DNA of 64,000 nt from Bryopsis sp. KO-2023. Lineage: Eukaryota; Chlorophyta; Ulvophyceae; Bryopsidales; Bryopsidaceae. Below the pieces are notes generated by a model. It saw only the letters and a program-made list of their open reading frames with translations. It was not told the DNA's origin and did no database searches. The position numbers and the translations under genes are program-made. Shown here in pieces: positions 1 through 24,278 of the stretch; position 1 is the first letter of the stretch; every line of letters starts with the position of its first letter. Where the stretch lies: NCBI GenBank assembly GCA_030272585.1, contig BSYQ01000011.1, positions 4,278,001 through 4,342,000 on the forward strand, read 5' to 3'.

Positions 1-340
1 AAGCGAGAAAGATGCAACTAATAGAGGGTTCAAGGCCGACTTCTAGGCTGCCTGAGCGAAGAGTGGTGATGGAAGACAAATGAGGGTAGAATTCCTTGTG
101 TATGGATCACATATTACAAAAATTGAGTGACCTCAGTGAACATCAAGCATGATGCCAGATTTCTCACTTCAGGGTTGACACATGTCCTTAAAATTAAGTT
201 TGAAGGAATTGAGTGGAATCCCTGTTGGCCCCCTCCAGGGGATTGGGTTCTATTCCCAAAAGGTTCCTATTATTAGATCTATCGCATCATTCACTGATAA
301 TTCACCCGTCTTTAGATGTCGTACAACAGCGTGACACCAC
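1..340. other. flanking DNA, nothing recognised
   Basis: No ORF with protein-like composition, no RNA gene and no element terminus is visible here. It leads into a short tandem repeat and then the satellite array. Confidence 0.5.
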
Positions 341-535
341 GTCAAAATATCGCTGACGCTCTCTGAGCGTGGAAGTAACACAACCGCAACGAGCGACGTG
401 AAACTACGTCAAATTGTCGCTGACGTTCCCTCAGCGTGGAATTAACGCAACCGCAACAAGCAACGTGAAACAACGTCAAATTACTGGTGGCGCTGTTTCA
501 CGCTGGATTGACACAGTCGCAACAAGCACGCAATT
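341..535 (+). repeat. 67-bp tandem repeat, about 3 copies
   Basis: Units begin at 341, 408 and 475, each 67 bp apart and starting GTCAAA. The third copy is diverged and truncated. Copies share the order CGCTGACG, then GCGTGGAA, then CAACCGCAAC, then GTGAAAC. A short dyad (CGCTGA then TCAGCG) sits inside the second copy. It is distinct from the 57-bp satellite that starts about 115 bp downstream. Confidence 0.7.
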
Positions 536-649
536 TTATGGGCGTTATTTTTGCGCTAATCATCGTCAGCGGTATCCGAATTCGATAAAGAGGCGTAAGC
601 GATAAAACAACGCCAGTTCTCGTCATTTTAACGCGGTTGGTTTTTTCAG

Positions 650-3600
650 ATGCATGTCTTCCCTTTCAGACTGCTGTTAGCAGACTTTTCAAAACCCTTG
701 AAACCGCCTCATATCCTTCCTTTCAGACTGCCGTTAGCAGACTTTTCAAAACCCTTGAAACCGCCTCATGTCTTCCCTTTCAGACTGCTGTTAGCAGACT
801 TTTCAAAACCCTTGAAACCGCCTCATATCCTCCCTTTCAGACTGCCGTTAGCAGACTTTTCAAAACCCTTGAAACCGCCTCATATCCTTCCTTTCAGACT
901 GCCGTTAGCAGACTTTTCAAAACCCTTGAAACCGCCTCATGTCTTCCCTTTCAGACTGCTGTTAGCAGACTTTTCAAAACCCTTGAAACCGCCTCATGTC
1001 TTCCCTTTCAGACTGCTGTTAGCAGACTTTTCAAAACCCTTGAAACCGCCTCATGTCTTCCCTTTCAGACTGCTGTTAGCAGACTTTTCAAAACCCTTGA
1101 AACCGCCTCATGTCTTCCCTTTCAGACTGCTGTTAGCAGACTTTTCAAAACCCTTGAAACCGCCTCATGTCTTCCCTTTCAGACTGCTGTTAGCAGACTT
1201 TTCAAAACCCTTGAAACCGCCTCATGTCTTCCCTTTCAGACTGCCGTTAGCAGACTTTTCAAAACCCTTGAAACCGCCTCATGTCTTCCCTTTCAGACTG
1301 CCGTTAGCAGACTTTTCAAAACCCTTGAAACCGCCTCATGTCTTCCCTTTCAGACTGCTGTTAGCAGACTTTTCAAAACCCTTGAAACCGCCTCATGTCT
1401 TCCCTTTCAGACTGCTGTTAGCAGACTTTTCAAAACCCTTGAAACCGCCTCATGTCTTCCCTTTCAGACTGCTGTTAGCAGACTTTTCAAAACCCTTGAA
1501 ACCGCCTCATGTCTTCCCTTTCAGACTGCTGTTAGCAGACTTTTCAAAACCCTTGAAACCGCCTCATGTCTTCCCTTTCAGACTGCCGTTAGCAGACTTT
1601 TCAAAACCCTTGAAACCGCCTCATGTCTTCCCTTTCAGACTGCCGTTAGCAGACTTTTCAAAACCCTTGAAACCGCCTTATGTCTTCCCTTTCAGACTGC
1701 TGTTAGCAGACTTTTCAAAACCCTTGAAACCGCCTCATGTCTTCCCTTTCAGACTGCCGTTAGCAGACTTTTCAAAACCCTTGAAACCGCCTCATATCCT
1801 CCCTTTCAGACTGCTGTTAGCAGACTTTTCAAAACCCTTGAAACCGCCTCATGTCTTCCCTTTCAGACTGCTGTTAGCAGACTTTTCAAAACCCTTGAAA
1901 CCGCCTCATGTCTTCCCTTTCAGACTGCTGTTAGCAGACTTTTCAAAACCCTTGAAACCGCCTCATGTCTTCCCTTTCAGACTGCTGTTAGCAGACTTTT
2001 CAAAACCCTTGAAACCGCCTCATGTCTTCCCTTTCAGACTGCTGTTAGCAGACTTTTCAAAACCCTTGAAACCGCCTCATGTCTTCCCTTTCAGACTGCT
2101 GTTAGCAGACTTTTCAAAACCCTTGAAACCGCCTCATGTCTTCCCTTTCAGACTGCTGTTAGCAGACTTTTCAAAACCCTTGAAACCGCCTCATGTCTTC
2201 CCTTTCAGACTGCCGTTAGCAGACTTTTCAAAACCCTTGAAACCGCCTCATGTCTTCCCTTTCAGACTGCCGTTAGCAGACTTTTCAAAACCCTTGAAAC
2301 CGCCTCATGTCTTCCCTTTCAGACTGCTGTTAGCAGACTTTTCAAAACCCTTGAAACCGCCTCATGTCTTCCCTTTCAGACTGCTGTTAGCAGACTTTTC
2401 AAAACCCTTGAAACCGCCTCATGTCTTCCCTTTCAGACTGCTGTTAGCAGACTTTTCAAAACCCTTGAAACCGCCTCATGTCTTCCCTTTCAGACTGCTG
2501 TTAGCAGACTTTTCAAAACCCTTGAAACCGCCTCATGTCTTCCCTTTCAGACTGCCGTTAGCAGACTTTTCAAAACCCTTGAAACCGCCTCATGTCTTCC
2601 CTTTCAGACTGCCGTTAGCAGACTTTTCAAAACCCTTGAAACCGCCTTATGTCTTCCCTTTCAGACTGCTGTTAGCAGACTTTTCAAAACCCTTGAAACC
2701 GCCTCATGTCTTCCCTTTCAGACTGCCGTTAGCAGACTTTTCAAAACCCTTGAAACCGCCTCATATCCTCCCTTTCAGACTGCTGTTAGCAGACTTTTCA
2801 AAACCCTTGAAACCGCCTCATGTCTTCCCTTTCAGACTGCTGTTAGCAGACTTTTCAAAACCCTTGAAACCGCCTCATGTCTTCCCTTTCAGACTGCTGT
2901 TAGCAGACTTTTCAAAACCCTTGAAACCGCCTCATGTCTTCCCTTTCAGACTGCTGTTAGCAGACTTTTCAAAACCCTTGAAACCGCCTCATGTCTTCCC
3001 TTTCAGACTGCCGTTAGCAGACTTTTCAAAACCCTTGAAACCGCCTCATGTCTTCCCTTTCAGACTGCTGTTAGCAGACTTTTCAAAACCCTTGAAACCG
3101 CCTCATGTCTTCCCTTTCAGACTGCTGTTAGCAGACTTTTCAAAACCCTTGAAACCGCCTCATGTCTTCCCTTTCAGACTGCTGTTAGCAGACTTTTCAA
3201 AACCCTTGAAACCGCCTCATGTCTTCCCTTTCAGACTGCCGTTAGCAGACTTTTCAAAACCCTTGAAACCGCCTCATGTCTTCCCTTTCAGACTGCCGTT
3301 AGCAGACTTTTCAAAACCCTTGAAACCGCCTCATGTCTTCCCTTTCAGACTGCCGTTAGCAGACTTTTCAAAACCCTTGAAACCGCCTTATGTCTTCCCT
3401 TTCAGACTGCTGTTAGCAGACTTTTCAAAACCCTTGAAACCGCCTCATGTCTTCCCTTTCAGACTGCCGTTAGCAGACTTTTCAAAACCCTTGAAACCGC
3501 CTCATATCCTCCCTTTCAGACTGCTGTTAGCAGACTTTTCAAAACCCTTGAAACCGCCTCATGTCTTCCCTTTCAGACTGCCGTTAGCAGACTTTTCAAA

Positions 3601-4239
3601 ACCCTTGAAACCGCCTCATGTCTTCCCTTTCAGACTGCTGTTAGCAGACTTTTCAAAACCCTTGAAACCGCCTCATGTCTTCCCTTTCAGACTGCCGTTA
3701 GCAGACTTTTCAAAACCCTTGAAACCGCCTCATGTCTTCCCTTTCAGACTGCCGTTAGCAGACTTTTCAAAACCCTTGAAACCGCCTTATGTCTTCCCTT
3801 TCAGACTGCTGTTAGCAGACTTTTCAAAACCCTTGAAACCGCCTCATGTCTTCCCTTTCAGACTGCCGTTAGCAGACTTTTCAAAACCCTTGAAACCGCC
3901 TCATATCCTCCCTTTCAGACTGCTGTTAGCAGACTTTTCAAAACCCTTGAAACCGCCTCATGTCTTCCCTTTCAGACTGCCGTTAGCAGACTTTTCAAAA
4001 CCCTTGAAACCGCCTCATGTCTTCCCTTTCAGACTGCTGTTAGCAGACTTTTCAAAACCCTTGAAACCGCCTCATGTCTTCCCTTTCAGACTGCCGTTAG
4101 CAGACTTTTCAAAACCCTTGAAACCGCCTCATGTCTTCCCTTTCAGACTGCCGTTAGCAGACTTTTCAAAACCCTTGAAACCGCCTCATGTCTTCCCTTT
4201 CAGACTGCCGTTAGCAGACTTTTCAAAACCCTTGAAACC
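650..4239 (+). repeat. 57-bp satellite array, 63 units (left part)
   Basis: The motif GTTAGCAG recurs exactly every 57 bp from 676 to 4210, giving 63 units. Each unit carries two dyads: CTGCT-GTT-AGCAG, and TTTCAA-AACCC-TTGAAA. Variant sites (C/T in the first dyad, TCATG/TTATG, TGTCTTCC/TATCCTCC) recur in blocks. Because 57 is divisible by three and the unit lacks stops in two frames, long repetitive ORFs appear by arithmetic; this is not taken as coding. The array continues after the inserted chromovirus at 13179. Confidence 0.97.
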
Positions 4240-4712
4240 TGTAGCGAATCAGGGTTTCTGACAGCCCTGCAGTACGTCAGCAGGCTTGCTGACAGTCCTG
4301 CAGTACTTTAAGTAGGAGGCTGGCTGCCCTGAGGCAGCGTACAGTCAGTCAGGGTGTGCTGGCAGTGAAGTAGTACGTGGACTACTGAGCTGGCAGCTAG
4401 AATGTTCTAGAAGGTCGCTCAGCACCACAGGAATGGCCGTGGGGCTGAGCTGGGCTCTGATTGAAAGGACTGCAAGGTCTGATGCCTTGCAGCAGTGATG
4501 CAGACTGATGTTACAGCCTATGATCAGTTAGGATCAAGGCTGCTAGGGTATTCTATAAGTTCTTGGGGTTTGAACGTTCTTGTAACCTTACTTTGGGATT
4601 GAACTCCCTTTGTCTCGCTTCCAAGTCGTCTATTCTTTCCCTCCAAGCCGTTTCAGGCTTGCAGTTCACAGCCGGCAGCCCACAATAGCGGTCTGCAGGC
4701 GGATTCACTACA
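4240..4712 (+). repeat. 5' LTR of chromovirus
   Basis: 473 bp, TGTAG...CTACA ends, identical by eye to the copy at 12706-13178. A TATA-like TCTATAAG lies at 4552-4559 and is the likely promoter core. Confidence 0.96.
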
Positions 4713-4713
4713 T

Positions 4714-4725
4714 TGGTTTCGGAGC
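4714..4725 (+). promoter_or_regulatory. primer-binding site of chromovirus
   Basis: TGGTTTCGGAGC begins one base after the 5' LTR. It has the TGG start expected for complementarity to a tRNA CCA end. The same 12 bases follow the left LTR of both TRIMs in this window. The primer tRNA would end GCTCCGAAACCA; I could not identify it. Confidence 0.85.
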
Positions 4726-4926
4726 AGGGGCGCAGCAAGACTGTGCAGGGTCGCTGGAGAACCTTGGAAGGCCCCACAGCCTTGGGAGAGATAGAACTGG
4801 AGAGTGCTGTGAGCAGCACACAGAAGCAGCGCACAAGCGCAGCACACAGACGCAGTTTTTGCGCTGTTCAGGGAAGCAGACTTGAAAAGTCACAGGCGCA
4901 GCTGTTGTTTCGTCGAGTTTGGTTGT

Positions 4927-5523
4927 ATGAGTTTCGGCAGACCTTCTGGTGGTAGTGACAGAGTTATTGAAGTGGTTTCTGACTCTGAGACGAGTATTCA
5001 TTCAGAGGACTCAGCAGAGAACCACCCAGAAGGGGTGCTGCCACATACACTGCGTTTTCCTGATACAGTGGTTCGTTTACCTTCTCCTCTTCGTTTTGCT
5101 CAGCCTGTACATATACTTGGACCTGTCAGACACCCTTTGGCAGTGTTGGAACCAGGCGCTCTGAGAGCACCCCCTCACGGTCACCGCAGAGCAGAACAGG
5201 GTCCAGGGTATTTCAGATACACAGAGTGTACTGATCCCAACTGCAATATATACAGGAATCGCTTAAGAGGTCAGCAGGAAAGAGAACGCAGAGAGCAGCG
5301 CAGAGATGGCTGGACAGGACGAGCAACCGCAGATAGGAATGCCGGCCCCAGATCCCTTCGACGTGCAGGGATTGAGGCAGATGATCTTGGACATGCAGGA
5401 AGAGGTCCAGCACCTGAGACACGTAGCAGCCAACGTGAACGTGCAGATGGACGACGCAGCTCGCAACGCAGTGCACAACAGGATGGCACAGCAGCAACCT
5501 CCCGCAGCTCTGGGCAGAGCTAG
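4927..5523 (+). CDS. possible upstream ORF preceding gag in chromovirus
   Basis: An ORF open from 4882, with an internal ATG at 4927 (MSFGRPSGG...), runs to 5523 and overlaps the start of gag in another frame. The first roughly 130 residues look protein-like: acidic and Ser-rich, then Pro-rich, then TECTDPNCNIYRNRL with two cysteines and a basic stretch. The part overlapping gag (after about 5306) is Arg/Ser-rich and probably an out-of-frame shadow. It could encode a small extra protein, or an N-terminal part of Gag reached by frameshift or splicing. No family is recognised. Confidence 0.35.
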   Translation: MSFGRPSGGSDRVIEVVSDSETSIHSEDSAENHPEGVLPHTLRFPDTVVRLPSPLRFAQPVHILGPVRHPLAVLEPGALRAPPHGHRRAEQGPGYFRYTECTDPNCNIYRNRLRGQQERERREQRRDGWTGRATADRNAGPRSLRRAGIEADDLGHAGRGPAPETRSSQRERADGRRSSQRSAQQDGTAATSRSSGQS

Positions 5524-6487
5524 GGCGAAAGGCCCTGACATGTGGTATGGTGATCCACATGATGTTCCCCTCAATGAGTGGCAAGTCCAGTTGCAGACAT
5601 ACTTTGATGTTACTGCAACCAGGGACAGGGAACAGCAGGTACTAGTGGCTGCAGGATGCTTGAGAGGAGCAGCAGGCACTTGGTGGAGAGGACGGTATGA
5701 AGCTGCGATGGCAGGACAGCTGAATCTGCCACAGGACGTTCCAGCTTTGGTGACAGCACTGAGACAGCAGTTTGGTAAAACGAATGAGAACAAAGACTTC
5801 AGGCGGGAATGGTCTCGTCTGAGGCAGGGACGATCTACTGTTGCTGAGTATGTGCATCAGTTCAGAAGACTTATGCTGCAAATCAATGACAGCAATGCTG
5901 GAGAGCAGCTGTTTCGCTTTGTAGAGGGTCTGAATGACCGTCTGCGAACTAAGGTTGAAATGGAAGATCCTGCAGATCTGGAGCGTGCGATAGCACTCGC
6001 CGCCACTTGGGAAGGTCCACTTCAGGCGTACCGCAGAGAGGAACGCAGAGGCCACAGTCCCAGGGGCAGACGTGAAGGATCACGCCAAGACAGATCAAAG
6101 AGCAGAGGCCGATCTCACAGCAGAGGCAGATCCTACAGCAGAGGAAGATCGCAGAGTCGAGGTCGCAGTGCTGGTCGTGGCAGAACTGACGCAGATCGTG
6201 ATAGGTATACACCACACCAATATACACCACAATTAGGGGACCGCATGGAGGTTGATGGCCTCCAGCGTAACCGCGTGGGTTTTGATGTTGGTAGAAACCG
6301 AAGCGACAGCCGCAGTAAAAGCAGAGGACGCAGTGGTAGTCCTCGCAGACAGAGGCAGAACAGGAGATCTGGAGAGAGTACCTCTGCCAGAAGGAGCAGA
6401 ATGGATGCAGGTCACTCTGCAGCGAATGTTGATTGTTACAACTGCGGCAAGAAAGGACATTTTGCTGCAGACTGTCAGGAAAACTGA
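5306..6487 (+). CDS. gag: chromovirus Gag (capsid/nucleocapsid)
   Basis: 393 aa. Residues about 80-230 match the Ty3/gypsy capsid region in style: GDPHDVPLNEW, then LRGAAGTWW, then RLRQGRSTVAEYVHQFRRL. A long Arg/Ser (SRGRS-type) basic region follows from about 245. A CCHC zinc knuckle near the end, CYNCGKKGHFAADC, fits nucleocapsid RNA binding. Gag assembles the cytoplasmic virus-like particle in which reverse transcription occurs. The start chosen gives MAGQDEQPQ. The pol frame opens at 6433, 54 bases before the gag stop and in the -1 frame, suggesting programmed frameshifting. The gag stop directly follows the knuckle. Confidence 0.9.
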   Translation: MAGQDEQPQIGMPAPDPFDVQGLRQMILDMQEEVQHLRHVAANVNVQMDDAARNAVHNRMAQQQPPAALGRARAKGPDMWYGDPHDVPLNEWQVQLQTYFDVTATRDREQQVLVAAGCLRGAAGTWWRGRYEAAMAGQLNLPQDVPALVTALRQQFGKTNENKDFRREWSRLRQGRSTVAEYVHQFRRLMLQINDSNAGEQLFRFVEGLNDRLRTKVEMEDPADLERAIALAATWEGPLQAYRREERRGHSPRGRREGSRQDRSKSRGRSHSRGRSYSRGRSQSRGRSAGRGRTDADRDRYTPHQYTPQLGDRMEVDGLQRNRVGFDVGRNRSDSRSKSRGRSGSPRRQRQNRRSGESTSARRSRMDAGHSAANVDCYNCGKKGHFAADCQEN

Positions 6488-9400
6488 GGAGGCCAGAGTC
6501 TGGAGAGACTGCTGGCCGAGAAATCCTGGCGGAGGAGGATAGAAGTGGAGTGTGGGATGGCCGGTGCAGCCCACCACACAGAGAGGCTACCAATTGGGGG
6601 GTAGCAGGAATTTTAAAGCAGAACTCCAAGGTTGGAGAGCCACGTGTAGCCTCAGCCAAGGAGAAGAAGAAGAAGAAGAAGATGGAGAACCTTGCAGGTA
6701 CAGAGCCATGGGTAGCCATACCTGAAGGGGATCTTGCAGTGTCAGTGTTGAATTTTGCAGGTGGAGGGCCTTGTGTAGCCACATTTGCAGAATGTCTGGT
6801 GAAGGATAAAGGGACAACGAAGGAGGGTTGTGGGCTGTGTGAAGCCACAACTGCTCTGGTCTCTGAGGCAGGAGGTGATGAGCCAAGTGAAGCCACACCC
6901 AGCCTGCAGGTGATGTCGGGCAGTGCAGGTTTGGGAGGTGTACAGCCTGAACCTGAGCTGCACAATGTTACTGAGTGTAAAAGTACTGATGGTGATCTGA
7001 GGGCAGACACATCAGATTTTTCAGTGAGAGAGGAGCTTGAACAGGGGAAACTTAGTGCAGATTCCCTTAAGAATGTTTGTTCAAGTGAACCCCCAGTTTT
7101 GAAGTTGAGAGGAGTCCAAGGGGGGACTCAAGGATTGTTGAAGACCACAGGGGCTGTGGCAGGTTGTTTTGCAAGAATTTTGTTAGATAGTGGTGCAACC
7201 GACAATTTTGTTTCGAAAGATTGGTTGTTAGAAAATGACATTCAGGCAAAGACTTCGGAGGTGGTTACTGAAGTGCAGTTAGCAGATGGCAAGACTTCAG
7301 AGAAGGTAGAAAAAGAACTGCAGGCCAGTGTCAAGATGGGGAGGTTTGTTTCAGAGGAAAAGATGTATGCAGTGACACTAGGCAGGTATGATCTGGTGTT
7401 AGGTATGTCTTGGCTGAGTAAACACAACCCTATGATAGATTGGCAGAAGAAGAAATTGGTTTTGCAGACACCTCAGGGAGTAGTCAAACTCAGAATGCAG
7501 ACTGGTAGAGTAGAGGATTGCAGTACTGAAGATTTGGATATGATGTCCGCCAAAGAGTTTGCTCGGGCAGCCCGCAAGGGTATGCCGATGTATTTGGTAA
7601 ATCTCCGGGAAGTTCAGGAGGAACATTTGATTAATAATGTGGAAAGTACTGATGCAGTAAAAGGCAGTGTTGCAGAAACCTTGTCAGAGGAAGGAAAAGA
7701 GGCAGCTGAGTTAGAAAAACAGATCAGAAAGGAGTTTCAGGATTTGTTTAAAGAGGAACTGCCACAGGAGTTACCTCCTGACAGGGGTGTGAATCATAAG
7801 ATTGAGTTGGTGGAAGGTGCAGAACCAGTAAAAAAGGGGCTTTATAGGGCCAGTTTTGCAGAAAGAGAAGAACTGAAAAAGCAGTTAGCAGAGCTGCTGA
7901 AGCAGGGATTTATCAGACCTAGCAAGTCTCCATGGGGTTCGCCGGTTTTGTTTGTTCCTAAGAAAAATGGGAAACTTAGGATGTGTGTGGATTTTCGGGC
8001 ACTTAACAAACTAACGGTGAAGAATAGGTATCCTATTCCAAGGATAGAGGAGTTGCTGGATCAGATTCAGGGAGCACGCTGCTTCAGCAAGATTGACCTC
8101 TGCTCAGGCTACCATCAGGTGCGGTTGGATCCTGCAGATTGTGAGAAAACGGCCTTCCGCACCAGGTATGGCCTTTATGAGTATGTTGTTCTTCCTTTTG
8201 GGCTGACAAATGCCCCTGCCACTTTTATGAACACAATGAATCATGTGCTGCATGATTTTCTGGACGTCTTTTGCATCGTTTACTTGGATGACATCCTGAT
8301 TTTTAGCAAAGATTGGGCAGAACACAAAGTTCATTTGCGGAAAGTGATGCAGAGATTGAGGGAACAGAAGTTGTATGCATCAGCTTCAAAGTGTGAGATC
8401 TGCAGAGATCAAGTTGAGTTTCTGGGGCATGAGTTAAGTGCTGCAGGAGTACAGGTGTTGCAGAGCAAGGTGCAGGTTATCAGAGATTGGCCACCCTTGA
8501 CATCAGTGAAGGATCTCATGTCCTTTCTGGGATTGGCAAACTACTACAGGAGGTTCATAAAGGACTTCTCTGCCAGAGCCAAGCCCTTGACTGCATTACT
8601 CAAAAAGGATGCAGAGTGGAAATGGACTGAGACAGAAGCTGCAGCCATGCAGGATATCAAGGAGGCATTGATGTCTGCACCGGTACTATTGGTGCCTGAC
8701 CCAAGTCTGAAGTTTGAAGTCACCACCGATGCTTCGGACTATGCAATAGGAGCAGTCCTAACTCAGGACAAGGGACAGGGTCAGCAGCCAGTTGCATTTG
8801 AAAGCAGGAAGCTGCAACCTGCAGAACTCAACTATGCTACTCATGAAAAGGAGCTGCTAGCAGTTGTGCATGCTCTGAAGGTCTGGAGACACTATTTGGA
8901 TGCACAAGAGTTTGTGGTGCACACCGATCATGCACCCCTCAAGTTTTTGCATACTCAGCCTCACCTGTCGCAGAGGCAAGCAAGATGGATGGAGACTCTG
9001 CAATCTTTCAAGTTCGAGATCAAGTACAGACCAGGCAGAGACAATGTGGTGGCAGATGCTCTGAGCAGGGCCACACATCAGGTGGAGGAAACAAAGTCTG
9101 AAATGAATGCTCAGGCTAGGCTGGAAGTTGCAGAAGGGTTCCTGCAACAGGTGCAGACAGCTTATTCCAAAGATCCACTGTGTCAGCAGTTGATCACTGC
9201 AAGACACAGGCCTGGACATGTGAAATGGGATGGCCAAAGGCTCTGGAGAAGAATTGGGAATGCTTGGAAATGGTGGATTCCTGAAGCAGATGGGCTCAGG
9301 GAGAAAATACTGCATGACTGCCATGAATCCCCATTGGCAGGACATTTGGGAAGAAGGAAGACCCTTGTCAGGGTGCAGTTGCATTATTTCTGGCCTCACA

Positions 9401-9633
9401 TCTCCGAGTCAGTGCACAAGTATGTCCGGAATTGCATTTCATGTCAGAGGAATAAGGCTTCTAATCAGAGGCCTTTGGGTAAGCTGCAGCCCCTGCCTAT
9501 TCCTGATGGCAGGTGGACCAGTGTTTCACTTGACTTTGTTGGGCCTTTACCTAGAACTCGAACTGGGTCAGATTATTTGTTGGTGGTTGTGGATAGGTTC
9601 ACAAAAATGATCAGACTTATTGATACGGGATAA
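6433..9633 (+). pseudogene. pol: chromovirus pol, 5' part: protease, RT, RNase H, start of integrase
   Basis: A -1 frame extension of gag. A Gly/Glu/Ala-rich linker (about 6620-6900) holds about five imperfect repeats of EP-x-V/E-A. Protease LLDSGATDNF is near 7184. RT has FVPKKNGKLRMCVDFRALN and the catalytic YLDD at 8281-8292. RNase H begins TTDASDYAIGAVL near 8720. The integrase HHCC zinc region (HESPLAGHLGRR... CISCQRNK) is at about 9320-9460. The first catalytic Asp region (SLDFVGPLPRT, then VVDRFTKM) follows. The native frame ends at 9620, where a TRIM is inserted; the ORF runs into its LTR and stops at 9631-9633. All motifs upstream look intact, so only this insertion visibly breaks the gene. 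Confidence 0.93.
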
Positions 9634-10158
9634 AGCGGCACAGGCCGCAAAGGGGGCGGGCCGGTCCACCAACGTCCCGTATCGTGTATCATTTGGTTTC
9701 GGAGCCGAACTTGCGATCCGAAGGTCACGAGTTCGAGTCCTAGCGAGGCCATGGAAGTTGAGAGTGAGTTGGCGCCTCTGACCCGAGAGTGGTAGTAACG
9801 AGAGGTGAAAGAGCATGAGGATCACTGCGAAGGAGGGGAGGGGGCTGAGATCATCACAGTGATCGCCGCCGCAGAGCAAGGCAAAAGACCATAAGCTCAA
9901 GAGACTAGACGGATCAAAGGGATAAGAACAAAGGATCAGAGGATCACAAGAAAGATCCTGGAGAACCCCCGAATAGACCCGCGAGAGAACGGTAACCCGG
10001 TAATCGCAGAGAGGGTCAAGGAGAATGGAGTAACGGGCACGAGGAGAAGGTGGTCGAGGGCGACCACTGGCCCGGGGGGGGACGAGATGATACGGGATAA
10101 AGCGGCACAGGCCGCAAAGGGGGCGGGCCGGTCCACCAACGTCCCGTATCGTGTATCA
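9621..10158 (+). mobile_element. TRIM element 1 nested in chromovirus pol
   Basis: A 538-bp non-coding element with two identical 71-bp terminal repeats (9621-9691 and 10088-10158). Each begins TGATAC and ends GTATCA. Target duplication CTTAT lies at 9616-9620 and 10159-10163. The primer-binding site TGGTTTCGGAGCC at 9694-9706 and a G-rich purine tract (about 10075-10087) before the right repeat are the hallmarks of a terminal-repeat retrotransposon in miniature. No ORF of its own is credible. It must be mobilised in trans; the host element shares its PBS. Bases 9707-9752 contain a tRNA T-arm-like motif (GTTCGAGTCC) but no complete tRNA fold. Confidence 0.95.
9694..9706 (+). promoter_or_regulatory. 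primer-binding site of TRIM 1
   Basis: TGGTTTCGGAGCC lies two bases after the left 71-bp LTR. The first 12 bases match the chromovirus PBS exactly, and extension to GCCGAA is shared with TRIM 2. The core TTCGGAGCCGAA is itself palindromic. Confidence 0.8.
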
Positions 10159-11163
10159 CTTATTCCTACTAAGCAAACAGTTACTGCTGCAGGGGTAGCA
10201 GATTTATTTTTCCAGAATGTGGTTCGTTTCTTTGGGTTACCTCAAGAAATTGTTTCGGATCGGGATACTCGTTTCACTAGCAATTTTTGGAGGTCTCTTT
10301 GGAAGAAGGCTGGAACAAGATTGGCAATGTCAAGCAGTTATCATCCTGAGACAGATGGTCAGACTGAAAGGGCTAACAGAACCGTGCAGGAAATTCTGCG
10401 CAGTTATGTTGAACCTGCAGGAACAGATTGGGATCAGCACTTGGCAGCTGCTGAGTTTGCTTACAACTCCAGTGTCAATGCTACTACTGGATTCTCCCCC
10501 TTCTATTTGATGAATGGGCAGAACCCAAGGACTCCTGCAAGTGCTGTGGCTGTGTCAGCCTGCCCTGCAGTGGATGATTGGTGGACTACTTGGCAATCTG
10601 ATCTGGAAAAATGCAGACACAATATTGCTGCTGCTCAGGCACGTCAACGCCAGGTGGCGGACGAAACCAGGCGGGGAGGGGGCTTTGAGCCAGGCGAAAA
10701 AGTTTTTCTGGCCACAAAAGACTTACCCCTACCTGCAGTGTTGAGCAGAAAGTTGTCAGCAAAGTACTGTGGACCATTTGAAGTCACTGAGAAGCTCTCT
10801 GAAGTTGCAGTCAGGTTGAGACTGCCAGGTCATTGGAGGATACATGATGTGTTTCATGTGTCCAAGCTCAAACCTGCATTTGAAGATCAGGTGGGCAGCT
10901 TTCCAGCAAGGGAGGCACCCAGGTGGCAACCTGAACCTGAGCTTGTGGATGGTCAAGAGGAATATCAGGTGGACAGAATTCTGGCAGACAGGACTGTCAG
11001 AGGCAGGAAGCAGTACCTTGTTCGATGGCAGGGATATGATCAATCTGAGGACACATGGGAACCTGCAGAACATTTGCAGAATGCTCGAGATGTACTACGT
11101 GACTATCAGCAAAGGAGTGAAGGGACCGCGATGAGGCGACGTCCTAGTCGGAAAGCACAGTAA
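10159..11163 (+). pseudogene. pol: chromovirus pol, 3' part: integrase C-terminus and chromodomain
   Basis: Continues the pol frame after the TRIM. The integrase core shows IVSDRDTRFTS (second catalytic Asp) and SSYHPETDGQTERANR (catalytic Glu). A GPY/F-type module follows (KYCGPFEVTEKL) and then VFHVSKLKP. A C-terminal chromodomain lies at about 10966-11120 (YQVDRILADR... YLVRWQGYDQSEDTWEP, with conserved aromatics). Chromodomains of chromoviruses bind modified histones and steer integration to heterochromatin, which fits the satellite insertion site. Element plus target duplication adds 543 bp (a multiple of three), but the TRIM LTR brings a stop, so no full-length Pol can be made. Confidence 0.93.
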
Positions 11164-11224
11164 AAAAAAACTGAAGAAGAAAAGGGAGAGTGTTATTTTC
11201 TCTTTATCGTTCGCGTTAGCAGGA

Positions 11225-12073
11225 ATGGTAGACCACGCTCAAGAGACCGAGGATCAGGTGGAACAAGCTTTCAAGTTGTTGAGCTCCAGGGCAGCATCAG
11301 CAGCAAATCTGTCCGCACAGCTTCGGAAAGCAAGAACTGAGTTGCAAGTCGCCCGTGCTGAAAATTATCGTTGGCGCGAGTGGGCAGCGAATATACCAGA
11401 AGTGGTGCAAGGGACTCAGCTCAGAGATGCAGATGCGGATGAGATCTCAGGAAGAGTAATGGAGTGTGAAGGAAAGTCAGTTGCAGGAAAGGAAAAGGTG
11501 GCTGATGTTAAGGAAGAAGAAGCAGGGTGGTACAGCAATTCTGTTGACAGAATACTTCCAAATCAGACACTGCTACTGCCAGAAGTGCAGCCAAACCCTG
11601 TGGAAGGGCTGACAGAGTCAAGCATGGGATGCACTCTGTGTTTCAAGACCTGCAACAGGCCAGTGCACACATTCCCTTGTGGTCAGCACAGGGTCTGCTG
11701 CAGATCTGTTTGTTGGATGAGGATGTGGTATGCCTATGATACCACTATTCAGCTCGATGCCGAGGGAAGGATGCAGGCGAACTGTCCAATTTCTCTGAAG
11801 GTAGCAAGTCCAGGACCTGCTCAGTTTGGAGAATGTGGATTGTGCAGGATGGTAAGGAGACATCCAGGCTTGACAGTCCCTCCAGCAAGAGTCATGACAA
11901 CACTTCGGATTGCAGGATTGGAGTTGCCTAAGAGCACTGCAGGAAGAAATCAGACAAACCGTGATGCAGCACCACACCGGATTGTTGAGTGGGAGGTTAT
12001 ACCTTCTAAGAAATCTGGGTCAGCAAAAAAGAGAAGTCTAGATGAGGTGATCTCTCAGGGTGCAGGTGACTAG
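11225..12073 (+). CDS. extra ORF (ORF3) of chromovirus with RING-like Cys/His cluster
   Basis: 282 aa, lying 61 bp after pol and before the 3' LTR, a position where most chromoviruses have no gene. Residues about 10-60 are predicted coiled coil (EQAFKLLSSRAASAANLSAQLRKA region). Residues about 136-190 hold a Cys/His cluster: CTLCFKTC, then PCGQHRVCCRSVC, then NCPIS. It resembles a C3HC4 RING with a reduced last pair. A further CGLC is at about 203-206. The tail is basic (KKSGSAKKR). No signal peptide or membrane segment is seen, so it is not envelope-like. A RING-type E3 or chromatin/nucleic-acid role is possible but unproved. Codon use and intact length suggest it is under selection in the element family. 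Confidence 0.75.
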   Translation: MVDHAQETEDQVEQAFKLLSSRAASAANLSAQLRKARTELQVARAENYRWREWAANIPEVVQGTQLRDADADEISGRVMECEGKSVAGKEKVADVKEEEAGWYSNSVDRILPNQTLLLPEVQPNPVEGLTESSMGCTLCFKTCNRPVHTFPCGQHRVCCRSVCWMRMWYAYDTTIQLDAEGRMQANCPISLKVASPGPAQFGECGLCRMVRRHPGLTVPPARVMTTLRIAGLELPKSTAGRNQTNRDAAPHRIVEWEVIPSKKSGSAKKRSLDEVISQGAGD

Positions 12074-12705
12074 TGCAGTTTGCTGCAGGTCACTTGAAGG
12101 AATGTTTGGTTTTTATTGAAATGTGATTTGCAGTGGGAGCTGCCAGTTCAGGCAGAACATATTAGGCTGATTGAATGAAACTTGGTATATTTCTTGACTT
12201 GGTGGAATTTGGAAAAGAACAATTTTCTGAGGGAGTTATATCATTTTGTTCCTTTTTCTTGAGTGCTTATGGGACAGGCAGAGTATTTTTCAGAGATTCT
12301 TAATAAACCTGCCAACTAGATACATTTTTGATAGCTGCAACAGAATGTGGTTTATTGCTGCAGCATAATAGTATCCTTTGAGAAGGGACATTTTTACTGA
12401 TTACTAGAACTTTGTGGGCTGATGAGCAGTGTTTATTTTGGAAAACTGCTGATCAGTCATTTGACTAATGTTTTCTAATGATTGAGGTTTTTATATGCCA
12501 AAGAAGTAGGAAGTTGCAGAAAACATAAGTTCAAGTGTGCAGCAGGGTTCTTTGGTTGTTGATGTTTTATTAGACCTACAAGGGAGTAGGGTTTGATTTG
12601 ATGATGAGTTTTCAGATCTTTATTGAGCTATGGAATTTCCCTAAAAGGTTGATTTATTTCAGTCAAAGTGCAGTAAGGGGCTACTGCAGTTCAGATGGGG
12701 AGGAA
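12074..12705 (+). other. 3' untranslated part of chromovirus
   Basis: AT-rich, with no credible ORF. It ends in the polypurine tract GATGGGGAGGAA that directly abuts the 3' LTR and would prime plus-strand synthesis. Confidence 0.8.
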
Positions 12706-13178
12706 TGTAGCGAATCAGGGTTTCTGACAGCCCTGCAGTACGTCAGCAGGCTTGCTGACAGTCCTGCAGTACTTTAAGTAGGAGGCTGGCTGCCCTGAGG
12801 CAGCGTACAGTCAGTCAGGGTGTGCTGGCAGTGAAGTAGTACGTGGACTACTGAGCTGGCAGCTAGAATGTTCTAGAAGGTCGCTCAGCACCACAGGAAT
12901 GGCCGTGGGGCTGAGCTGGGCTCTGATTGAAAGGACTGCAAGGTCTGATGCCTTGCAGCAGTGATGCAGACTGATGTTACAGCCTATGATCAGTTAGGAT
13001 CAAGGCTGCTAGGGTATTCTATAAGTTCTTGGGGTTTGAACGTTCTTGTAACCTTACTTTGGGATTGAACTCCCTTTGTCTCGCTTCCAAGTCGTCTATT
13101 CTTTCCCTCCAAGCCGTTTCAGGCTTGCAGTTCACAGCCGGCAGCCCACAATAGCGGTCTGCAGGCGGATTCACTACA
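12706..13178 (+). repeat. 3' LTR of chromovirus
   Basis: 473 bp, same ends and sequence as the 5' LTR. It is followed immediately by the second copy of the target duplication AAACC and resumption of the satellite. Confidence 0.96.
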
Positions 13179-13649
13179 AAACCGCCTCATGTCTTCCCTT
13201 TCAGACTGCCGTTAGCAGACTTTTCAAAACCCTTGAAACCGCCTCATATCCTCCCTTTCAGACTGCTGTTAGCAGACTTTTCAAAACCCTTGAAACCGCC
13301 TCATGTCTTCCCTTTCAGACTGCCGTTAGCAGACTTTTCAAAACCCTTGAAACCGCCTCATGTCTTCCCTTTCAGACTGCTGTTAGCAGACTTTTCAAAA
13401 CCCTTGAAACCGCCTCATGTCTTCCCTTTCAGACTGCCGTTAGCAGACTTTTCAAAACCCTTGAAACCGCCTCATGTCTTCCCTTTCAGACTGCTGTTAG
13501 CAGACTTTTCAAAACCCTTGAAACCGCCTCATGTCTTCCCTTTCAGACTGCCGTTAGCAGACTTTTCAAAACCCTTGAAACCGCCTCATGTCTTCCCTTT
13601 CAGACTGCTGTTAGCAGACTTTTCAAAACCCTTGAAACCGCCTCATGTC
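13179..13649 (+). repeat. 57-bp satellite array, 8 units (right part)
   Basis: The motif GTTAGCAG recurs every 57 bp from 13211 to 13610. The distance from the last left unit (4210) to the first right unit (13211) equals the element plus 5-bp duplication plus exactly one 57-bp step. Both parts were therefore one uninterrupted 71-unit array. Confidence 0.97.
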
Positions 13650-13658
13650 CCTGTAGAG

Positions 13659-13685
13659 ACCTATGGCTCTTTTTGGGCCATAGGT
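13659..13685. repeat. perfect hairpin at satellite array edge
   Basis: ACCTATGGC, nine-base loop, GCCATAGGT: a perfect 9-bp stem starting 10 bp after the last satellite unit. No following T-tract or gene makes it a terminator candidate. Confidence 0.6.
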
Positions 13686-13833
13686 GTTGTTTCATCGTCG
13701 GCGACGTCTGGCAGTGAAAACGGAATGATGGCAAAGCGAAATGTGATCGTTGCTTGTCAGCCTGGGATTCTCGGCGGTTGAGAAACACTCCGTATACTCG
13801 TAGATTGTCACGCTGCAATTTGTTCCACAAGGC

Positions 13834-14433
13834 TTGGTCCTGATGCGAGAGCTTTCGCTGCTTTGGCAATGGTGTATGGGCTCGAAGCTCTCTCCCCAGA
13901 GTTTCTGGATTTCGTCCCCGCGTTCTCTCATGTCGAGTTTGGAGCAGCTTCTGCAGAAGGACGCTTTCCGAATGTTGGGTACTGAAGAGGAAAACAAGGT
14001 TTTACACTCACTAGAAAGACTTGATCAAGACAACGACGCTGGTCGGTACAATTTCCCATACCTAGACTTCCAAACAAACTGGTTGGACGAGGTTTCTTTC
14101 TTGGTGGCGATGAGTATCCTTGTTAAGTCGACGACCAGTAGGTGTGCCGATGTTTTTGTGCTGCCTTCACAAACACACAAATATTTTCGATCGACTCAAC
14201 GAATTCTTGCCAAGGAGCTGAGCTCAGCGAACTGTCACGACGTTTCTCGCCCGAAATATCAAATACGAACACAAGCTTGGTGCGCTGAGGTAACCCGATT
14301 CATTCAAAGGTACTCAAAAATTTGGATACCAGGTCAACGACGGTTAGCTATAGCTCAACACAAGTCACAGGGTTGCCAGGAAAAGCCACCGGTATGCATT
14401 CGCAGTAGCAGCGCTGCTATGCGGTGGTATTGA
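13834..14433 (+). CDS. hypothetical ORF, 199 aa
   Basis: A single uninterrupted ORF with reasonable composition in its middle (SLEQLLQKDAFRMLG, then LERLDQDNDAGRYNFPYLDF, then HKYFRSTQRILAKELSSANC). No domain is recognised and there is no signal peptide. It could be one exon of a larger gene or a relic. No supported splice partners were found. Confidence 0.35.
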   Translation: MVLMRELSLLWQWCMGSKLSPQSFWISSPRSLMSSLEQLLQKDAFRMLGTEEENKVLHSLERLDQDNDAGRYNFPYLDFQTNWLDEVSFLVAMSILVKSTTSRCADVFVLPSQTHKYFRSTQRILAKELSSANCHDVSRPKYQIRTQAWCAEVTRFIQRYSKIWIPGQRRLAIAQHKSQGCQEKPPVCIRSSSAAMRWY

Positions 14434-15500
14434 CCCCACGATAGATCCGTGTTGCTCTCACCTGCACAATTGATGGCAGCTGTCGTCACTGGGACTGGGA
14501 AAGTACAAAGGTGGAAAGAGTGGTTGTGGGTGAATGGGACCTGTGTAGGAGAATAAATACTGAAATGTGCTCAAGAATGAACGGTCAGGGTTGGTTGCGA
14601 AGTCGCAAAACAATGTGCACCGTTGGCTGTTAGTGCCAGAAATGGTGGTTCTAGAAACTAGCAGGAAGACGACCTCAGTCGCTCGTTGCAACATGTCCAC
14701 ACACGACAAAGAGTAAAACTGCGATCAGGACAACATCAAAGCGCCGACACGCAAATTGAATATGAACTCATATCCTCTATATTCTTACACAGTGGGGTGG
14801 GCCCACTATTTATGTGCTTGCTAGCATGCTGTTTTGTGACGAATGACACAGTACCCATCACAGCACACATACTTCCTATGTGGAAACCATCCTCATCTGC
14901 AACGAAAAAATCGACTCTAGTTTTCATGGTCTCTGAGTTTTGACAGGCCTTGGGCATTTAGACTATGGGGGAGGAACGGTGCATCCCTTCCCATGAATCC
15001 TCAGCTTCCCTTTCACGTGGACCTTGTAACCAACCAATATGTATTGTTGTAAATGTATATGTATATGTACTGTATACGTATTGGACACCCCCTTCCATAC
15101 AGGAGGCCAAAAGAGTCGTTACATTCGCCTGGCCACCCTTTTTTACTCATCCATAAGTCGATCGCAGTACTCACTTGCTGGTCCCAGCGGGATGATTGAC
15201 ACATCAGCCCAGGTGATATATATGTAAATCAAACGTGATACATTAGAGTAGTTTGTCGTGTGTGTGATGAGTGATGGTGGTAAGAGCATTTTGTTTCGTT
15301 CGTTCACGCTCCGTTGTTCGTTGATGGCGACGTCGTGTTATCGACTGGGAGGAACTGTCTGGTTTCACGCGAGTGGAAAGTAAAGTTCACGCGATGGGGG
15401 GCCAGGTAGAGTTGTGTCTTTATTTAAGCACCAGCTAGTCGGTGAAGAACGTTTTCGGGGGGGGTTGTGTTATTGACTGTGTGCGTGACACCAACGTAGT
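14434..15500. other. intergenic DNA
   Basis: Short ORFs only. It includes a TATATG-type microsatellite (about 15045-15075). Its 3' end is the likely promoter and 5' UTR of the hydrolase gene. Confidence 0.5.
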
Positions 15501-21074: not shown

Positions 21075-21201
21075 TTATGGAAAAAAACTGGCTCGAAGTA
21101 CCCACCCCAACACAACCACACAGACACTCCAAGAAAACTGTAGAAAACATTCATTCAACCTTTAAAAAACTGTCCCATATGTTCGAAAAATCAAATATGC
21201 C
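21075..21201 (-). repeat. split direct repeat B1
   Basis: 127 bp copy of B2. It lies just downstream of the recombinase stop on the minus strand, as expected for the internal B repeat. Confidence 0.93.
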
Positions 21202-21219
21202 CACCGAACCGCCACCGCG

Positions 21220-22740
21220 TCACTCGAAGACAGAAGTATCATCGAGAAAAGACGCAGGAGGCGCAGACAAGCCCGCGAACAGGGTAGCACCAAAGGGTGC
21301 TGCCGAAGCTGCCAAGTCCAAATAACGCCAGATTGCGTTAGAGCGGGCAGACCATCCACCCCAAATGCGCAGCTTCCAAACTGGGACTCCGGAATGGAGA
21401 GCCGCTGTAGCGCCACCACGACGCAGCGAGTGCGAAGTCCAGTCACCTGGGGGCAGCAAGGGCTGGTAGAACTCACAGAAAGCTTGAAACCTGGCGCGAA
21501 CGGAGGCACCAGTGGTGGGGGGAGGGTCATCAGGTAACTGCCAGATGTAGGACGATTCAGTGCCAGCAGCGATCCAAGCGTCACGACGCCGGGAAAAATA
21601 GAGCAGGTACAGGTCCAGGAGAAAGGAGGGGAGATCCCTGAGGGTGCGCAGTCGCAACCGCTGCGAACTTTGGGAGCCGACGCCCTTGGTATACCTCTCT
21701 CGAAAAAAGAGAGCTTGGTCGGCCAGTAAAACCTCCAGGTCTCCTTCCAAAACCCCGGCGCCGCTGCAGGATCGGGAGAAAAACAGGTAGAGGGTGGTCA
21801 CGAGTAAGACGTCACGGAAAGGCGCCAATGCCAGCTCCGGCGTCACAGTCGCCAGAATGCGTTCCAGAACGCTAGGCGAAAACGCTTGAATGGCGTCATC
21901 GCGTGGGCCCTCCTTCCCCCAACCGCTTAGCACGCCGTTGATCATGCTGGTAAAAGTTAAAAGCTCCCAGCCGAGAAGTTTCATCACACTCGCAACTCCA
22001 GAAAGGTAGGTGGTGGCGGTCGTCACAACCACTGAGCCGGAGGCTTTCATGGCATGAACGTAAGCCAGTAATGTAGACTCGGCTGGAGGAAAAGCTTCGA
22101 AAAGTTCGCCAAGACAAAACAATAAAAACCGAGAAAACTGGGGGCGCAACCCCTTCTGTGTACTGGGCGCCAATGCATTCAAACGCTGTTGCAACAAAGC
22201 CAAACCTCTCTCCTCGCCCAACGTAGCCAACTGATGGGACCAAAACTCCGAAAAATCGTTCAGCACCAAACGGGCGACCCAGTCTCCGTTTGATAAACAG
22301 TCCAGCGCCAACTTGAGGCGTTCGGTGGTACGGTCCCTCCGAAACGTCCTGGAATGATCGTGCTCGCGCTCGGAGGAAAGGTCACTATCCGCTTGGCCGA
22401 AGCTGCTATTCGTTGGAACCACGCTCGGTGTCCCCAGTGGGGAACTAGGCACAAGGCTGGCAGACGATTGCGGAGTAGAAACTCGATAGTCGTCGGCAAC
22501 TCCGAAATCGGGGGAAACACCCAGTTGCGTTCCCTGCGCCAGCTCGCTAGGGGATGACGTAAGCAGTCGCCCCCCTCCGTGCCCGGCTCCTCCTGTAAGG
22601 AGTGGTACCGCCCCAGCTGACGAGTTCCCAAGGATGCGTACCGGTCGCACGTGCAGTGGTACTGGCGTTGGATAGTCGTGAATAAGGACGGGTGTAGTCT
22701 GTACTCCTCGGCTGACGTAAGTCGGGACAGGATGTCGGGC
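21220..22740 (-). CDS. tyrosine recombinase of the split-repeat retrotransposon
   Basis: The frame is open from 23619 to 21220, but upstream of about 22740 it is an Arg/Ser-rich shadow of RNase H; the true start or frameshift point is uncertain. The C-terminal half is a phage-integrase-type domain. A candidate first Arg is in FFSRSCSGAG, with the HxxR box in SHSLRRGGATAA (about 21410-21440) and then WGGWS. The nucleophile Tyr lies in IWRYLDLA (about 21305-21335). It would integrate the circular cDNA by strand exchange, without target duplication. It overlaps the RT ORF by up to about 480 bp beyond RNase H, in a different frame. Confidence 0.88.
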   Translation of the reverse strand, partial: ARHPVPTYVSRGVQTTPVLIHDYPTPVPLHVRPVRILGNSSAGAVPLLTGGAGHGGGRLLTSSPSELAQGTQLGVSPDFGVADDYRVSTPQSSASLVPSSPLGTPSVVPTNSSFGQADSDLSSEREHDHSRTFRRDRTTERLKLALDCLSNGDWVARLVLNDFSEFWSHQLATLGEERGLALLQQRLNALAPSTQKGLRPQFSRFLLFCLGELFEAFPPAESTLLAYVHAMKASGSVVVTTATTYLSGVASVMKLLGWELLTFTSMINGVLSGWGKEGPRDDAIQAFSPSVLERILATVTPELALAPFRDVLLVTTLYLFFSRSCSGAGVLEGDLEVLLADQALFFRERYTKGVGSQSSQRLRLRTLRDLPSFLLDLYLLYFSRRRDAWIAAGTESSYIWQLPDDPPPTTGASVRARFQAFCEFYQPLLPPGDWTSHSLRRGGATAALHSGVPVWKLRIWGGWSARSNAIWRYLDLAASAAPFGATLFAGLSAPPASFLDDTSVFE

Positions 22741-24278
22741 ATGGTGTTGTCCTTGGAAGGGATCCACTTGAGGTCCATATCGATTCCCAAAGAATCCAGG
22801 AGGCGATACACGTGACTGTACGTGCGTTGCAACGCGCTCGATCTGGAATTCTGTCGACTCAGCACCCAGCGAGTGACCAAACTGTCTGTCACCAGGGTGA
22901 TGCGATGATTGCGCAGCTCCGATTTGAAGTGTTCGACGGCTTTGCGAACCGCCGTAATCTCCAGGCCGTTGATGTGTTGCTTCTCCGTGTGTTGCCAAAA
23001 ACCCGCGGCGAGCGCGGGGACCCTCTGTCCAGGGGTTTCCAACTTCGCTCCCCATCCTGTTGTACTCGCGTCGACGCTCAAGGTGTGAGTCGGAAGTGGT
23101 GGCCACAGTGCCATGGAAACTTTGTTGGGGTCGAGCTTCTGCCAGTGGCGAAGCTCCGCCAAAGCTGGACGCGAAACCTGTACCCGACTGCTCCAAGAAC
23201 GCAGCCCGTGGAGACATCGATAGAGGTGGTGGAGCCAGTAGCGCGTTCCTGGAATGGCGAGGCGACACGACTGCGCATAGCCTGTGAACTGTGCGAGATC
23301 CCGAGCGGGCAATCGCCGTCCCTTCTGCAGAGCCGAAACTCGCACGCGGCGAGCGAGCTTCTTCAGCTTCGCGAGCCTGTGTGGTGGCAAAACAAATAAG
23401 CACGACTCGGTATCGATTAGAAAACCGAGGTGCTGAAGTCGTCGCTGTGGTTTCCAGGAAGATTTTTCTTCCTTCCACTGTAATCCCAATTGTCCCATCA
23501 TGCCTCTGACTAATGATCCAAAAATTTCTAATTCTGTGGGGTCTCCATGCATCCCCATAAAATCGTCTAAATACCATGTGATTCTGACTGGATCGGACGA
23601 ATTCCGATATCTCTCCCAAAACTTGAAAATAAAATCATGATCCCCTTGGGATTCAAGATGTGCAACCCCTCCGGGGTTCCGTAAAAATCGAACGAACTGT
23701 TGTATAAGTTCGCAAAAAAGAAGGGGAGAGCCCCGATAACCGAAAGGAAGGGAAGTACAACGAAAAAACTCCCCTTCCATCTCAAATTCGAAAAACTGTT
23801 GATGCATGGGGTCTATACCCAAATGAAAAAATGCATCTTTAAGATCCCATTTGATGAGGTAATCATTAGGTCTGAGATGCGAAGAAAGAGACCTAAGATC
23901 CTCATATTGAACTGGGTGAGGTTCGACCTGGCGATTCAACGGTCGCAAGTCGATTATCAATCGCTTCCCACTAACCTCTCCGTTCTCATTTCGTTTATCC
24001 ACTAAAAAAGCGTGACTGCAAATCCCATTCGCGCTAGGCGCTGCGATTTTCTGAATCGCCCCTTTTTTGAGATAATCCTGTTTAATTTTTTCCCATTCGT
24101 CGTTCTTTTCGACTGATCTCACTCTTTTTTTCGGAAAAACAGGGTCGGGTACGCCGACGAACCTGGCGCGAATACCGTTTCTGATACGGTTGAGCACCCT
24201 TTGGCTCGTCCCCACTCGAACCCATTCCTGATAGCGAGCTCGTACCTGGAGCGAAGTCCACGCCTGGTACGGATCCAT
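22260..24278 (-). CDS. reverse transcriptase-RNase H of the split-repeat retrotransposon
   Basis: 672 aa; its ATG shares one base with the gag-like stop (TAATG), suggesting coupled re-initiation. RT motifs: KRLIIDLRPLN, IKWDLKDAFFHL, SLPFGYRGSPL, and the catalytic WYLDDFMG (YLDD at 23573-23562), then LGFLIDTES. RNase H of DIRS type: LSVDASTTGWGAKLE, GLEITAVRKAVEHF, LVTDSLVTRWV, and DNTMPDILSRL near 22740. The last 130 or so codons (after RNase H) are basic, and the recombinase ORF overlaps there in another frame. No methyltransferase domain is visible, which favours Ngaro over DIRS proper. Confidence 0.93.
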   Translation of the reverse strand: MDPYQAWTSLQVRARYQEWVRVGTSQRVLNRIRNGIRARFVGVPDPVFPKKRVRSVEKNDEWEKIKQDYLKKGAIQKIAAPSANGICSHAFLVDKRNENGEVSGKRLIIDLRPLNRQVEPHPVQYEDLRSLSSHLRPNDYLIKWDLKDAFFHLGIDPMHQQFFEFEMEGEFFRCTSLPFGYRGSPLLFCELIQQFVRFLRNPGGVAHLESQGDHDFIFKFWERYRNSSDPVRITWYLDDFMGMHGDPTELEIFGSLVRGMMGQLGLQWKEEKSSWKPQRRLQHLGFLIDTESCLFVLPPHRLAKLKKLARRVRVSALQKGRRLPARDLAQFTGYAQSCRLAIPGTRYWLHHLYRCLHGLRSWSSRVQVSRPALAELRHWQKLDPNKVSMALWPPLPTHTLSVDASTTGWGAKLETPGQRVPALAAGFWQHTEKQHINGLEITAVRKAVEHFKSELRNHRITLVTDSLVTRWVLSRQNSRSSALQRTYSHVYRLLDSLGIDMDLKWIPSKDNTMPDILSRLTSAEEYRLHPSLFTTIQRQYHCTCDRYASLGTRQLGRYHSLQEEPGTEGGDCLRHPLASWRRERNWVFPPISELPTTIEFLLRNRLPALCLVPHWGHRAWFQRIAASAKRIVTFPPSASTIIPGRFGGTVPPNASSWRWTVYQTETGSPVWC

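Follow-up and report, generated by a model that had tools for sequence, protein, structure and literature searches.

How did a tandem array, a retrotransposon and a second, far shorter retrotransposon come to lie one inside another in the genome of the alga Bryopsis sp. KO-2023, and does the arrangement call for anything beyond the ordinary behaviour of mobile elements? Bryopsis is a siphonous green alga (Ulvophyceae, Bryopsidales). The stretch analysed here, called the window, is C11:4278001-4342000 (64,000 nucleotides) in a genome of 91 Mb and 28 contigs, and it contains no letters other than A, C, G and T. Coordinates without a contig prefix are window positions, and those with a C prefix refer to contigs of the same genome. 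Near the left end of the window, an array with a 57-bp unit is interrupted by a chromovirus, a long terminal repeat (LTR) retrotransposon whose integrase gene is in turn interrupted by a terminal-repeat retrotransposon in miniature (TRIM). The nest is real and far exceeds what chance would produce, and we are very confident that it arose recently and step by step, as ordinary mobile elements accumulated in a locus-specific minisatellite. No publication on the nest was found by title or abstract opening in the literature on the chromovirus, on Bryopsis KO-2023 and on green-algal TRIMs, a search from which subscription papers largely fell outside.

A chromovirus within a 57-bp array

The array is divided into a left block of 62.9 copies (653..4239) and a right block of 8.3 copies (13179..13649), and the interval between them is filled by the chromovirus, with a 5' LTR of 473 bases at 4240..4712 and a 3' LTR at 12706..13178, both on the plus strand. 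The two LTRs (TGTAG...CTACA) are identical at 473/473 bases and are flanked on each side by the target duplication AAACC (4235..4239 and 13179..13183). When the element is removed, the two array edges join into a unit of 57 bp that is identical to monomer type B, of which the array has 26 others. The perfect duplication and the undisturbed 57-bp spacing claimed in a preliminary description of this locus are both borne out by these comparisons.

The order of the domains, as read with Pfam, is that of a chromovirus, namely gag, protease, reverse transcriptase (RT), RNase H and integrase. Behind the primer binding site TGGTTTCGGAGC (4714..4725, plus strand) lies a gag frame (5267..6484, plus strand; Retrotrans_gag 3.7e-14, zinc knuckle 8e-07). 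The pol frame is cut by the TRIM, so that protease, RT, RNase H and the zinc-binding part of integrase lie at 6433..9620 and the rest of integrase with the chromodomain at 10165..11160 (both on the plus strand). Searched as two TRIM-separated pieces, integrase gave its zinc-binding domain in the first (3.7e-21) and the end of its core domain in the second, the latter at 0.00034, which is below Pfam's cut-off; a Tf2-type SH3 domain was also matched. Before the 3' LTR, the polypurine tract GGGGAGGAA can be read at 12697..12705 (plus strand). The chromodomain at the C-terminus of integrase (PF00385, 1.8e-17, about 10963-11115) matches solved chromodomains with E values down to 1.8e-14, and MPP8 and HP1-type chromodomains are among the 63 solved-structure matches. 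Its three cage residues Y, W and Y are kept, aligned with CDYL at eeYqv, vrWqg and gYd. Because this cage is retained, the domain is, judged by its sequence, of the group I (classical) type according to the definitions in the available text of PMC3350952 and PMC3605345.

LTR matches in the genome numbered 254 candidates, of which the 40 that were scored are all 99-100% identical, and at least 13 contigs carry such LTRs. As to more distant relatives, 7536 pass an E value of 0.001 with the RT-to-integrase piece (510 residues); the highest identity among the 120 listed is 70%, to a metagenome protein, and none of the other 119 exceeds 54%. A further, cysteine-rich frame after pol (11135-12073) was considered as a gene and rejected, having no homologue at 1e-3, no Pfam match and no solved relative. 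In the C9 copy of the element, the only one compared, this frame has an early stop and its changes are spread evenly over the codon positions (4, 4 and 5), and on that account also we do not claim it as a gene.

A TRIM within the integrase gene

The inner element occupies 9621..10158 (538 bp, plus strand). Its 71-bp terminal repeats (9621..9691 and 10088..10158, both on the plus strand) are identical over all 71 bases, and the target duplication CTTAT stands at 9616..9620 and 10159..10163. Its primer binding site (9694..9705, plus strand) has the same 12 letters, TGGTTTCGGAGC, as that of the chromovirus, and a purine-rich run lies before 10088. With a length of 538-540 bp among its copies, 71-bp direct repeats and a 5-bp duplication, it agrees with the definition of TRIMs in the accessible part of PMC4717578, by which they are shorter than 1 kb and have terminal direct repeats and a 4-6 bp duplication.

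The TRIM-free form of the target, a 36-bp joined flank with one CTTAT, recurs 32 times elsewhere, never exactly; 15 of these sites have one mismatch, 10 have two and 7 have three. A reversed control pattern is present nowhere. Subtraction of the TRIM and one duplication (543) from the LTR-to-LTR spacing of 8466 leaves 7923; the spacing elsewhere is 7919, 7921 and 7922 in three copies, and the remaining paired copies of the list range from 7956 to 8428. The genome search for the TRIM itself gave 93 candidates, of which 40 were scored, with 41 matches. The 19 rows that were aligned represent 17 distinct copies with flanks (L014/L083 and L015/L084 are duplicates and were counted once), and 5-bp duplications were found at 15 of these 17 and identical terminal repeats in 16. 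The two copies without a duplication read on into TTTGGTTT, just as the interior of a TRIM does, and therefore look like tandem TRIMs. One base of the window TRIM is private among the aligned rows and is present in both terminal repeats, as would follow from the copying of both repeats from a single template. Judged by coordinates, an LTR of this chromovirus family apparently contains a second TRIM (C4:6864053 and 6864405-6864942).

The relative order of the layers follows from the nesting: the array came before the chromovirus and the chromovirus before the TRIM, as had been proposed. That all of this is recent, as also proposed, agrees with the identical terminal repeats, the intact duplications and the presence of six monomer types among the 71 units of the array.

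Two minisatellites and a larger nest

Two terms of the preliminary description need revision, as the array was called a satellite, which is overstated, and the nest was said to have three levels, which is too few. Array-like sequence has 77 matches in the genome, a lower bound, very common words having also been skipped; all lie on C11 and belong to the 57-bp array and a 55-bp relative (73-79% identity), and arrays on several or all chromosomes were not found in this search. Within the 57-bp array, the 71 units fall into only six monomer types, a 19-unit run is repeated 17 units apart and a 9-unit run is repeated 7 units apart. The recurrence of these runs indicates that block duplication homogenised the array recently. 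A protein-coding array was rejected, since two frames of the 57-bp unit are free of stops, which accounts for the long open frames across the array, and no other coding evidence was found.

A decayed gene copy lies at 13665..14691 (minus strand), and its paralogue, 82% identical, lies directly right of the 55-bp array; the unit of decayed gene copy and minisatellite is therefore present twice in tandem. Both copies keep broken minus-strand coding similarity to an exon of a gene-like C5 locus (E 2e-12 and 5e-12, obtained with a small subject set, the C5 locus being read from sequence and not annotated), one copy with a frame change and the other with stops. Two C3 loci gave no coding similarity below 0.1 to the decayed copies. 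Because decayed gene copies adjoin both arrays and are paralogous in tandem, the arrays are locus-specific minisatellites beside two tandem dead-gene copies rather than a chromosome-wide satellite. The ~140 bases at 14550-14691 have a counterpart upstream of the gene-like locus on C5 (82%) and two more on C3 (64-77%).

The 55-bp sister array carries LTR insertions of its own, and the nest thus exceeds three levels. At least two further insertions split this array, one of them enclosing another copy of the same chromovirus. The enclosing element extends from C11:4231787 to 4266727, with LTRs identical at 410/410 bases and TTCAT on both sides, and contains a chromovirus copy at 4239940-4248334 (duplication TAGGA) together with further retroelement-like frames. 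A single giant LTR element of 26 kb (C11:4231787/4266727) was rejected on account of the several further gag-like and pol-like frames inside; because two inner 6-kb stretches hold several such frames, read from their translations without a family search, the interior looks like a stack of elements. Beside the enclosed chromovirus copy, and apparently inside another retroelement, L066 (C11:4248315-4248834) contains a collagen-like Gly-Pro-Pro open frame on its minus strand.

A further LTR element, of 1.7 kb, lies at L048:6325-8036 (C11:4272325) with the duplication ATACC and has an abnormal end, in which the 3' LTR is followed by the primer site and a repetition of the last 16 LTR bases. A solo LTR at L048:4542-4828 (C11:4270542) has both this abnormal end and the ATACC duplication, and the two loci share 185 identical bases before and 214 from near the LTR end onward. 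The simplest account is that one faulty integration was later duplicated with the 55-bp array, one copy being reduced to the solo LTR; array turnover would then have continued after the insertions. The primer site TGGTTTCGGAGC is common to the chromovirus, the TRIM, the 1.7-kb element and the element opening at C11:4231787.

The left edge of the 57-bp array, at 653, is not free and abuts the end of a terminal inverted repeat (TIR) DNA transposon of ~2.2 kb (C11:4276447-4278652), whose terminal part occupies 1..652. With a 16-kb query, six of seven other loci stop matching at 652-656 and the seventh at 577. The placement of the transposon end at 652 derives from this comparison of loci, and not from the inverted match of 620-652 at C11:4276447, in which the query itself ends at 652. 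The transposon has an internal 67-bp repeat and many copies, and a clear target duplication was not seen.

A possible insertion preference of the chromovirus

Could the chromodomain have brought the chromovirus to the array, as was suggested earlier? CDYL and MPP8 chromodomains read methylation of histone H3 lysine 9 (H3K9). By this explanation, the classical chromodomain would read H3K9 methylation on the repeat block and tether the integrase there, and we regard it as possible and rather doubtful. The Y-W-Y cage retained in the CDYL alignment and the MPP8 chromodomains among the matches are in its favour, as is a second copy (C10:2091083-2099548) in the middle of another array, which also has a 57-bp period but does not match the window at 1e-6. 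Two further copies, C8:1839654 and C11:4239940, are located within another LTR element, which counts on the same side. A precedent exists in MAGGY, whose group I chromodomain targets heterochromatin according to the consulted portion of PMC3350952.

The distribution of the copies is less favourable. We compared 24 chromovirus sites including the window copy, comprising 10 with both flanks and 13 more, some of them one-sided (C10:5000921, C11:1128773 and two C9 sites, L011 and L012). The 5-bp duplication was found at 10/10 copies of the first batch; in the second batch of 13 it was found by script at six and by eye at one and was missing at one, the rest not being two-sided. At C3:7379205 the LTR starts with TGTAA, the duplication GTTGG was read by eye, and the 5' flank lay outside the repeat-finder run. 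At C6:5897147 only the 5' flank was counted, as the short tandem repeat in the fetched 3' stretch lies at least 250 bases past the LTR end.

Judged by their flanks, two copies lie in a tandem array, namely that of the window and C10:2091083; without the window copy the count is 1/23. This is indistinguishable from 0/20 random sites, drawn from 13 of the 28 contigs (Fisher p = 1.0); at one random site a 53-base repeat is present and does not cross the site itself. At TRIM sites the count was 0/17 with flanks of 150 bases per side, one A-rich imperfect repeat lying beside and not across the junction. With the window copy included, 2/24 against 0/37 pooled random and TRIM sites gives p = 0.15. 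A short repeat near C6:5912022 and the Gly-Pro-Pro coding repeat near C11:4248650-4248790 reach no junction and were not counted. Several other chromovirus sites lie in repeated DNA, a comparison that depends on the stretches examined and from which we draw nothing.

Selection against insertions elsewhere would give the same picture as guided insertion. Targeting of arrays by the chromodomain is possible, and the counts do not support it. Because the chromodomain is of the classical type, a preference of the chromovirus for heterochromatin is still plausible.

Centromere, assembly and the weight of the evidence

A tandem array with several nested LTR elements on one contig, and a second chromovirus copy 34 kb away, could also be thought to mark part of the centromere of this chromosome, the chromovirus being a centromeric retrotransposon. 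We consider this very unlikely, as array-related sequence is on one contig only (in the lower-bound search), chromovirus LTRs are on at least 13 contigs, and the contig, 4.60 Mb long, ends ~0.31 Mb from the array. The features of CRM elements, as given in the available text of PMC3605345, were not found in this element: the chromodomain has the classical cage, unlike the CR motif, and coding does not extend into the 3' LTR, the chromodomain frame stopping at 11163, ~1.5 kb before the 3' LTR that begins at 12706. That the nesting is an artefact of a chimeric or wrongly joined assembly can hardly be credited. Assemblies do typically go wrong at tandem arrays and identical LTRs, but both insertions have exact 5-bp duplications, the outer one is in the correct array phase, the window is without N and the TRIM-free site is present 32 times.

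Several points nevertheless weigh against a recent pile-up of ordinary elements. Our reading is of assembled sequence, not raw reads, and it is possible that the array contains a false join or has been given the wrong number of units. The chromovirus copy at C5:4405451 has no duplication, its 3' side being the element's own interior and not a true outer flank. What points to a candidate mobiliser of the TRIM is a single feature, the shared primer site. The primer tRNA for TGGTTTCGGAGC was not found, with 0 matches to a search pattern that may miss initiator tRNA-Met, the T-loop of which it does not admit. In kind the nest is ordinary, neither a proven landing site nor, in all likelihood, a centromere.

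A tRNA-like stretch beside the primer site

One feature of the TRIM is unusual and deserves a direct promoter test. Behind its primer site, a 26-base stretch (9716..9741, plus strand) that includes a B-box, GTTCGAGTCC (9731-9740), aligns with the genome's elongator tRNA-Met at a score of 35, whereas the best of 300 shuffles reaches 24. For tRNA-Ile the score is 27 and the best shuffle 25, and the other four tRNAs tested score 16 to 21 where their best shuffles reach 20 to 22. The letters of the B-box are invariant in all 19 aligned rows. A convincing A-box was not found in the TRIM, in which the best match is 6/9 (6/9 and 7/9 in two other copies), a chance level given that 237/500 shuffles reach at least 7. 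The absence of TTTT from the TRIM is uninformative, as TTTT is missing from 1828/2000 simulated sequences as well.

On both strands, none of 200 shuffles folds as well as the 71-bp repeat (z -3.6 and -3.9), and the same is true of 9692-9760 (z -3.3). In Rfam there were 0 matches at the gathering threshold across the window and 0 up to E = 5 for 9560-10220, and despite the strong fold, a known RNA or ribozyme was rejected on these empty searches.

A promoter split between the terminal repeat and the internal region, from which RNA polymerase III would transcribe the TRIM, seems to us unlikely. The predicted promoter would consist of the tRNA-Met-derived B-box after the primer site, with transcription beginning close to base 1 of the 71-bp repeat, an arrangement to which we likewise give little credence. 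Such a split-promoter TRIM would, if real, be to our knowledge the first known in a green alga. It would also represent a new layout among TRIMp3 elements, in which only the 5' repeat could drive transcription and the repeat can shrink to little beyond the R region.

Other features of the window and genome

On the minus strand at 21162-24997, an RT/RNase H frame (Pfam) is overlapped by a long frame whose end resembles a tyrosine recombinase by its motif, with no Pfam match, and this is perhaps a DIRS-like element. A 330-residue open frame rich in Glu, Pro and Ala repeats lies at 33528-34520. The frame at 62688-63710 matches the protein BSKO_12274 of Bryopsis sp. KO-2023 at 100% identity, with 88% of the query covered. 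On C5, at about 2.78-3.14 Mb and 3.67-3.77 Mb, tRNA-Ile(TAT) and several further tRNA genes are found in many tandem units of ~3.0-3.7 kb.

Discussion

The history of the nest involves a unit of decayed gene copy and minisatellite that is present twice in tandem, its 55- and 57-bp arrays each being homogenised, probably by unequal exchange, with repeated blocks of 17 and 7 units in the 57-bp array. The chromovirus entered the 57-bp array, presumably by means of its own integrase, with a 5-bp duplication, and the TRIM then entered the integrase gene of the chromovirus, again with a 5-bp duplication. Because the TRIM is too short to encode the enzymes for its own copying, it may have borrowed those of an LTR element with the same primer site, the chromovirus being one candidate. 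The layers probably survive because there is no gene under selection at the site. Nothing in the nest departs from known mechanisms.

The locus is of value because it allows young element families of a siphonous green alga to be placed in a clean relative order, and because it offers a tractable test of classical-chromodomain steering in this lineage once an H3K9 methylation profile exists. It also suggests that array turnover and insertion were interleaved, given the insertion in the sister array that was apparently duplicated together with the array.

The components of the nest resemble systems that are already known. Like other locus-specific minisatellites with higher-order blocks, the 57-bp array has few monomer types and repeated multi-unit blocks, and it differs from them in having two tandem paralogues with unit lengths of 55 and 57 bp. 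Group I chromodomains have been reported in the green-algal Chlamyvir clade (PMC3350952, in the part consulted), with which our chromovirus shares the Ty3/gypsy domain order, a C-terminal classical Y-W-Y chromodomain and a green-algal host. TRIMs in Chlamydomonas and Volvox, as well as tandem TRIMs, have already been published (PMC4717578, as far as its available text goes), and the TRIM described here shares with plant and algal TRIMs a length of 538-540 bp, direct repeats, the 5-bp duplication, the primer site, the purine-rich tract and the occurrence of some tandem copies; it differs in its repeats of only 71 bp and in the tRNA-Met-like stretch directly after the primer site. With Helenus and Cassandra (TRIMp3) it has in common a sequence resembling a small-RNA gene within a TRIM. 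In Helenus, however, the tRNA-like part lies in the LTR (PMC10886601, in the text available), whereas here it is internal, at 9716-9741 beyond the repeat end at 9691, and is without a convincing A-box.

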